From positions 496,001 through 560,000 of the forward strand of contig JAPDRO010000011.1 in assembly GCA_030247885.1 (NCBI GenBank): DNA of 64,000 nt, in the 5' to 3' direction. The notes beneath the pieces were generated by a model. That model had not been told where the DNA came from and did no database searches. It was given only the letters and a program-made list of their open reading frames with translations. Made by a program: the position numbers and the translations under genes. This DNA is from Taxawa tesnikishii (nom. ined.). Lineage: Eukaryota; Ascomycota; Dothideomycetes; Dothideales. Below are positions 45,612-46,785 of this stretch, one piece after another (position 1 is the first letter of the stretch; each line of letters begins with the position of its first letter).

Positions 45612-45854
45612 GATGGGTAGGGTATTATGTACGGACACTTCTCCGACGACGAGTTTGGGGCGTTGTTATGGACCACTCACACCGGGATGCACCCGCGTGT
45701 GCAGGGGCCAGCCAATAACGCTCCGGCTTCAACCGTGCGTCGTATGCACACGTACAGAGGGTCAAACAAGAAGCAAGGCAAACTTAGCTACAAAACGATG
45801 CGGCCACGCTATGGGCGAAGACAGTAAAAGGAGAGCCGATCTCAACCCAAAAAC

Positions 45855-45998
45855 TGCGGCCAACGGGGTTCGAACTGGGAGGGATGTTAGAACAATGTGA
45901 CGAGAGTCATTGTGAACGGCAGAACTTACCCCGTGACCTCCGCCTATCTCATTCGTTATGATGGGAAGGCGGAATCATAACCACTAGACTATGACCGC
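45855..45998 (-). tRNA. tRNA-Gly (CCC) with two insertions
   Basis: The cloverleaf is complete once two inserts are removed: acceptor GCGGTCA with TGGCCGC, D-arm GTCT-AGTGGTTA-TGAT, anticodon arm CCGCC-TTCCCAA-GGCGG (anticodon CCC at 45963-45965), variable loop AGGTC, T-arm ACGGG-TTCGAAC-CCCGT and discriminator A. The mature length is 73 nt. Insert 1 (45946-45961, 16 nt) lies after position 37, the canonical tRNA-endonuclease intron site. Insert 2 (45875-45929, 55 nt) lies between positions 53 and 54. A consensus A-box (TAGTCTAGTGG) is intact, and a T5 terminator directly follows the 3' end (45849-45853), so the gene looks transcribable by Pol III. The next gene, wss1, starts about 240 bp downstream on the same strand. 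Confidence 0.85.
45875..45929 (-). other. Spliceosomal-type intron inside tRNA-Gly T-arm
   Basis: The 55-nt insert starts GTAAGT, ends CCCAG and has CTAAC about 11 nt before its 3' end. All three are fungal spliceosomal consensus signals. Its middle can form a hairpin between ACAATG and CATTGT. Exact removal restores a perfect five-pair T-stem and the seven-base TTCGAAC loop. No bulge-helix-bulge typical of tRNA endonuclease substrates is evident by eye. Confidence 0.75.
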
Positions 45999-46785
45999 TA
46001 ATTGGTGGCAAACATGTAAATTTTAATAATATAGCACACGAGATTGATGAGGCAATCAGCGGGGTATGGTACGACGGGAATCCGGACAACGATCTCGGAA
46101 ACTCATTGCCAAGCACTATAGATAGAGAACGCAAATAACATGCCTCTGTCTCGAGTCAACATACAACTGGAGGGCCCGGCACAATTTAGAACATGCGAAT
46201 CAAGTTCAAGGTATAGAGGGCGAGTCAAGCTACCGGGCAGCAGCTCAGAGGCCTCAAGGTGTTTTCACGGTTACCGCCGAACAGCTTGTAGCAAACTACC
46301 GCAATGCCGTTCTCAGAGTTCACACACGCGGCTGCAATAGTGTACTGTTGCAACAACACGAAGGAAACAATACAGGAGGACTTGCATGACCTTGTGCTTC
46401 TGCACCGAGGTTTCCACCCCTCTGGGACAAGGATTGGCTGTGTCCTCGACAGTACCAAACCGAAGAACTTCTGCCTGATCCTCTCCAAGAGGCTGACAAT
46501 GCCAGACTGTGCACGGTATAGGTCGATGTTAGGACATTTCCCAGATCTCCCAGGATGTCAAGATGTTACAGAGATGTATAGTCGTCATGTTCCCTTATGT
46601 ATACAGATTCCAACATCGTACATACGCTTTTCCTTGTACAGGCCTTCGACCGAGACAGAGGTCTTTCCCCGTTCCTCTGCGCCGAGCAATCAAGCCGTCC
46701 CTTCCTTCGAGGACATGGAAGCGCCATTCCAAGAATTCGGCCTGCTTCGCATCAGCTCACGATCCTTGACGATTTCTTTCTGAAC
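45999..46785. other. Intergenic between tRNA-Gly and LETM1-like gene
   Basis: About 790 bp. An open plus-strand frame of 159 codons (46304-46783) shows no recognisable motif and ends against the 3' end of the LETM1-like gene; I do not call it. Confidence 0.35.

Follow-up and report, generated by a model that had tools for sequence, protein, structure and literature searches.

The window, the whole stretch of 64,000 nucleotides of Taxawa tesnikishii DNA analysed here, carries on its minus strand a tRNA-Gly(CCC) gene in three exons, which are separated by an ordinary tRNA intron and by a second insert that resembles a spliceosomal intron. The source is a desert soil fungus of the Dothideomycetes, the class that the sequence-only reading had mentioned: one protein encoded in the window is 100% identical, over 86% of its length, to H2203_005480 of T. 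tesnikishii, and two more match records of this species, one of them also under the name Dothideales sp. JES 119. The features of the gene are listed below.

45855..45998, minus strand: tRNA-Gly(CCC) gene, three exons (Rfam tRNA model; ARAGORN on the sequence minus 55 nt)
45962..45998, minus strand: exon 1, tRNA nt 1–37 (sequence reading)
45946..45961, minus strand: ordinary tRNA intron of 16 nt at 37/38 (ARAGORN i(38,16) on the spliced sequence)
45930..45945, minus strand: exon 2, tRNA nt 38–53 (sequence reading)
45875..45929, minus strand: spliceosomal-type GT-AG insert of 55 nt at nt 53/54 (donor GTAAGT, branch CTAAC, acceptor CAG)
45855..45874, minus strand: exon 3, tRNA nt 54–73 (sequence reading)
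45866..45876, minus strand: B box AGTTCGAACCC in the genomic DNA (by eye; 10/11 fit to the consensus GGTTCGANNCC)
45981..45991, minus strand: A box TAGTCTAGTGG, uninterrupted (by eye)
45849..45853, minus strand: T5 run, Pol III terminator, one base past nt 73
46028..46033, minus strand: TATATT, a TATA-like element that starts 35 nt upstream of nt 1

The two boxes are judged against the B-box consensus GGTTCGANNCC and an A-box consensus. The joined exons give a 73-nt tRNA in which 7/7 acceptor pairs and 5/5 T-stem pairs are formed, as the sequence-only reading had described for removal of 16 and 55 nt; its account of GTAAGT, CTAAC and CAG in the 55-nt insert also holds on the minus strand, as does that of the A box and the T5 run. 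The insert has the GT-AG ends of a U2-type intron, a fitting CTAAC branch whose A is followed by 12 nt, and a 3′ end CCCAG, with two registers possible; its excision restores the host RNA. It lies at 53/54, whereas the 16-nt insert occupies 37/38, the canonical position of endonuclease introns. With its A box whole, its B box fitting at 10/11 positions and its T5 run, the gene has the make-up of a Pol III gene, and its intact acceptor and T stems give no sign of a pseudogene. The genomic B box fits at 10/11 because the final A and G of the insert replace nt 52–53.

The Rfam tRNA model, run with permissive filters on a 901-base stretch, spans 45855–45998 with 32.1 bits against a cut-off of 29. 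The gene was missed by a fast whole-window Rfam tRNA scan and by ARAGORN run without introns. With introns allowed, ARAGORN gave tRNA-Gly(ccc) only once the 55 nt had been removed, the 16-nt intron being left in.

A stray introner with a hairpin core had been suggested as the source of the insert. The hairpin is unremarkable (MFE −4.8, z −0.81 against shuffles), and the insert used as a DNA query returned no copies besides itself, so that the near-identical copies by which an introner is known are not found for it; the suggestion is weakened. Among the 12 inserts described below, one has a hairpin with z below −3 (Leu-CAA_psi intron 1).

The sequence-only reading had also reasoned that the gene would have to be spliced if it were the only Gly(CCC) gene of the genome. 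That is probably not the case. From its stems, locus L080 reads as a probable second Gly(CCC) gene, with a longer 37/38 intron and without a T-arm insert; ARAGORN prints (tcc) for it. A spacing-limited pattern had pointed to no other Gly(CCC) gene, wrongly, since the longer 37/38 intron of L080 exceeded the spacing. With such a copy at hand, the fungus may be able to do without the window gene, which on its own makes a weaker case than the ten-gene set to which it belongs.

That set comes from a genome sequence of 29,367,862 bases in 34 contigs. Ten of the 82 nuclear tRNA genes read, a sample that is no measure of a genome-wide rate, carry 12 extra inserts, 51–56 nt long, which occupy seven sites in the D, variable and T arms; site numbering and gene classing were done by hand. 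The inserts span eight isoacceptor families, and none of the 12 lies in the acceptor stem or the anticodon arm.

Gly(CCC), window gene: insert at 53/54
Lys(CTT), L111: insert at 53/54, donor GTACGT
Leu(TAA), L118: one insert at 12/13, another in the variable arm
Leu(CAA), L117: insert at 15/16, GC-AG
Leu(CAG), L108: insert at 15/16
Ala(TGC), L119 and L061: insert at 19/20 in each
Arg(CCT), L107: insert at 16/18
Ile(AAT), L161: insert at 18/19
Leu(CAA), L155, decaying: two inserts, placed as in L118, donor GGAAGC, by eye mismatches in the stems

Only L155 in this list is marked as a pseudogene by broken stems or signals. Most of the interrupted genes also have an ordinary intron at 37/38. Such introns are frequent among the nuclear tRNA genes read; for Ile(AAT), L158 and L160 have one and L018 and L141 do not. 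A tRNA-His-like 3′ half lies directly upstream of the interrupted Ile gene, in the first 60 bases of L161.

The tRNA loci came from sites with a B box plus a T-run and from other leads, and were read by eye with ARAGORN; one list of such sites consisted of the matches listed among 131 places, and of another, of 45 places, 39 were covered. Of 18 loci first set aside as noise or duplicates, those that were not duplicates were read again; L046, a tRNA-Ile(TAT) without a GT-AG insert, is included in the 82. Loci L042, L089/L167, L140/L168 and L163 are left out of the count, and 20 further candidate places contained no tRNA by eye or ARAGORN. The sample favours genes whose B box can be recognised, mostly with a T-run nearby, and several isoacceptors are absent from it, which is why 10/82 cannot be taken as a rate. 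The pattern GTRAGT...YAGTTCRANNC matched eight places, of which the window gene was the only tRNA by eye; it missed the Lys gene L111 because of the donor GTACGT, and that gene came from the B-box sites (viral contigs scanned for such tRNA inserts, 0). L089/L167, L140/L168 and L042 have tRNA-like 3′ halves and 5′ parts without a fold, and may be truncated pseudogenes or more interrupted genes. On the organelle-like contig C25 of this genome (G000), tRNA hits are mirrored about 49,574, with a nested mirror about 14,105, which may be an inverted repeat or an assembly artefact; an algal source, which these mirrored tRNAs might suggest, is contradicted by the protein matches.

ARAGORN with introns allowed found nothing in 7/10 of the unspliced genes and a wrong tRNA in 3/10. 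All ten were found in their spliced versions, nine with the assigned isoacceptor; the tenth, Leu(CAA), was called SeC, as was its intronless sister L086. Introns of this kind may have gone unseen because tRNA finders expect a single intron, at 37/38. The available text of the JES_119 genome paper gives 29,383,553 bp, 38 scaffolds and 197 tRNA genes by tRNAscan-SE, and the word "intron" does not occur in its main text (PMC11195213).

The ends of the 12 inserts are GT-AG in ten, GC-AG in one and GG-AG in one, the last in the decaying L155. GT/GC...AG ends thus occur in 11/12 inserts, against 0/52 of the introns at the usual position in any register, these controls being the unfiltered ARAGORN list at its positions 36–41. 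Under an equal-base null with registers counted, the probability of at least 11/12 is 1.4e-18, and with only the eight distinct sites it is 1.6e-14. The branch motif CTRAY is present in 10/12 inserts, and the other two have TTAAC and CTTAC; the distance from the branch A to the insert end is 10–13 nt in 12/12, the best motif having been picked by hand within 7–29 nt. The splice-site consensus was taken to be the general fungal one, since four protein-to-window attempts yielded only one plausible mRNA intron. The Lys and Ala_a inserts have 17/18 nt in common round the branch site; scores between other tRNA families are weaker.

Extra inserts in the D and T arms could instead be ectopic introns cut by the tRNA endonuclease at a bulge-helix-bulge (BHB) motif, the GT-AG ends being coincidental. 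For the BHB we took a geometry of 3-nt bulges round a 4-bp helix. By this measure, to which no positive control was applied, a full central helix is formed in 0/12 inserts in any allowed register; the mean is 2.3/4 pairs, with 2/4 for Gly, and four of the 12 inserts reach 3/4. Ectopic D- and T-arm introns are known in red algae and archaea, and many nucleomorph ones are described as being without a defined BHB in the part of that literature consulted (PMC3978253). Endonuclease cleavage leaves the GT/GC-AG ends in 11/12 inserts and the branch motifs unexplained, and we consider it very improbable.

Intronless sisters supply empty sites for five of the interrupted genes. The Ile gene L161 minus its insert equals L018 in 74/74 bases; the spliced Leu(UAA), Leu(CAA), Leu(CAG) and Lys sequences are identical to L087 at 96/97, to L086 at 110/112, to L122 at 101/108 and to L181 at 96/102 positions; these lengths include the introns at 37/38, and by eye it is there that most of the differences lie. 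Among the genes read, Lys has five intronless copies (L178–L182). These Lys(CTT) copies have no near T-run, and share similar stretches upstream (AGTCTTGCC...CACCA) and downstream (a CTGATCA hairpin, then a T-run); by eye, these surroundings give the impression of a tRNA-derived repeat or of a Pol III transcript that extends beyond the tRNA.

The sisters raise the question of whether the interrupted copies are dead, that is, whether introns or intron-like DNA sit in tRNA copies now silent while the sisters carry the load. With intronless sisters for Lys, Leu(UAA), Leu(CAA), Leu(CAG), Ile and, through L080, probably Gly(CCC), those interrupted genes could be dispensable, and L155 is visibly in decay. 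The Ala(UGC) pair tells against this view. Each of the two Ala(UGC) genes found is interrupted, and the exons of the two are the same except at positions 7 and 66, which pair as A-U in one gene and as G-C in its partner, a change that, judged by its pairing, is compensatory in the spliced product. Their D-loop introns are 69% identical (shuffled mean 49%) and their flanks 58% (shuffled mean 51%), and the 37/38 introns have diverged too. A search with an 18-nt Ala(UGC) probe, two mismatches being allowed, returned the two interrupted genes and L184, which is no tRNA by eye; a more diverged gene would escape it. In addition, 9/10 spliced bodies are clean by eye, and splice signals are kept while intron interiors diverge. 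Death of the Ala(UGC) genes is unlikely, and death as the explanation of the whole set is improbable. The dead gene proposed earlier is therefore disfavoured by the intact body, boxes and terminator and by the Ala(UGC) pair, and may still be right for the Gly gene taken alone.

Introns of the same kind interrupt the U6 snRNA genes of this genome. All three U6 hits over the cut-off (L175, L176 and L183) carry GTAAGC...ACAG introns, of 51, 55 and 56 nt, which sit after ...CCCCTGCACT, and the remaining U6 sequence and a T-run follow downstream of the intron. The hits match model positions 1–66 only, because the intron interrupts U6 at that point. The count leaves out three hits below the cut-off: L185, degenerate and intronless; L186, degenerate and with a longer span; and one on C9. 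If L175, L176 and L183 make the U6 of the fungus, a Pol III transcript is among the substrates of its spliceosome. U6 introns reportedly match the B box, to go by the title of a 1990 paper by Frendewey. In the fission yeast S. pombe, as far as the sources were available, U6 is transcribed by Pol III, and the spliceosome removes the mRNA-type intron that it contains (PMC8917221, PMC10484740). The central claim of the sequence-only reading, a spliceosomal-type GT-AG intron beside a normal tRNA intron, gains strength from these three U6 hits and from the nine other tRNA genes with such inserts.

Transcription of the interrupted tRNA genes deserves separate consideration. Six of the 12 inserts (at 12/13, 15/16, 16/18 and 18/19) lie within the A box, nt 8–19 by hand numbering, which tells against those genes being simply transcribed by Pol III. 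In 3/10 interrupted genes a TATA-like match lies upstream, at about −35 to −43, one flank being only 44 nt long, and T4–T5 runs begin 0–7 nt from the 3′ end in 10/10. Spliceosomal splicing is coupled to Pol II transcription, and Pol II could accordingly be the polymerase of the interrupted genes, with splicing taking place in that setting, a view that agrees with the broken A boxes and with the seven genes without a TATA-like match. The T-runs at all ten 3′ ends speak against it, as do the B boxes, whole or nearly whole by eye, and the presence of the same kind of intron in the U6 of this fungus, a Pol III gene elsewhere. We hold Pol II transcription to be quite improbable, and the least secure part of our own proposal is that Pol III transcribes the genes with D-arm inserts.

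We propose that the Gly insert is a U2-type spliceosomal intron in a Pol III-transcribed tRNA gene, one of a set of ten, and give this reading a probability of about 0.83 on the sequence evidence. It is supported by the sequence anatomy, the empty sister sites, the uniform splice signals, the compensatory exon change and the U6 introns. In this proposal, the U1, U2 and U6 snRNPs would recognise GUAAGU and CUAAC in the uncapped Gly precursor; the insert would be removed as a lariat and nt 53 joined to nt 54, after which the T arm could fold. The 16-nt intron would be cut by the tRNA endonuclease and its ends joined by ligase, by the usual route. As to gain, our guess is that a free intron was reverse-spliced into a Pol III transcript and then passed back into DNA. 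For the interrupted tRNAs, Pol III transcription, splicing in vivo and the order of the steps are what we infer.

A broader proposal seems to us evenly balanced between true and false. In T. tesnikishii, and perhaps in its order, the spliceosome may be an obligatory enzyme of tRNA maturation, with at least one isoacceptor, Ala(UGC), derived solely from genes with spliceosomal introns; tRNA genes would go on acquiring introns of this type, probably through reverse splicing into Pol III transcripts.

Removal of tRNA introns is not known to be a task of the mRNA-splicing machinery. No report of spliceosomal introns in nuclear tRNA genes was found among the open-literature matches listed, judged by title and start of abstract, a scope outside which most subscription papers and preprints fall. 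The tRNA host and the insert sites appear to be new, as far as we are aware; the intron type in a Pol III host has its precedent in U6. A 2026 review, in the part available, treats tRNA splicing as independent of the spliceosome (PMC13149111). If our reading is true, the spliceosome handles short, uncapped Pol III transcripts besides U6, and tRNA supply is tied to splicing. The genes would also offer clean cases of intron gain or loss, in which the sisters are the same apart from the intron and the host has no reading frame, and the sister-gene pairs are a good setting for the question of intron birth. In tRNA annotation, such genes can be overlooked or given a wrong name, as the ARAGORN results show.

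Several known systems resemble the one described. Ordinary 37/38 tRNA introns coexist with the inserts in most interrupted genes, including the window gene with its 16 nt; they differ in their fixed position, in having GT-AG ends in 0/52 cases and in their removal by endonuclease and ligase. Nuclear rRNA genes of fungi are said to contain mRNA-type introns, according to the title of a 1993 paper by Rogers; the host is likewise a structural RNA, but rRNA and not tRNA. Introners are new spliceosomal introns at new sites, as the inserts would be, and are so described in the accessible part of the introner paper, the main text of which has no occurrence of "tRNA" (PMC9860276); a difference is that no repeated family is seen here for the Gly insert, which matched itself alone. 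The ectopic introns of Cyanidioschyzon merolae, nucleomorphs and archaea, as far as the source seen goes, are also extra introns in the D and T arms, several per gene (PMC3978253), but depend on BHB and endonuclease, whereas the Taxawa inserts have spliceosomal signals and no full BHB. The fission yeast U6 intron, so far as its description was at hand, is likewise an mRNA-type intron in a Pol III gene that is removed by the spliceosome (PMC8917221, PMC10484740); there the host is an snRNA, and here the hosts are tRNAs, with seven sites in eight isoacceptor families.
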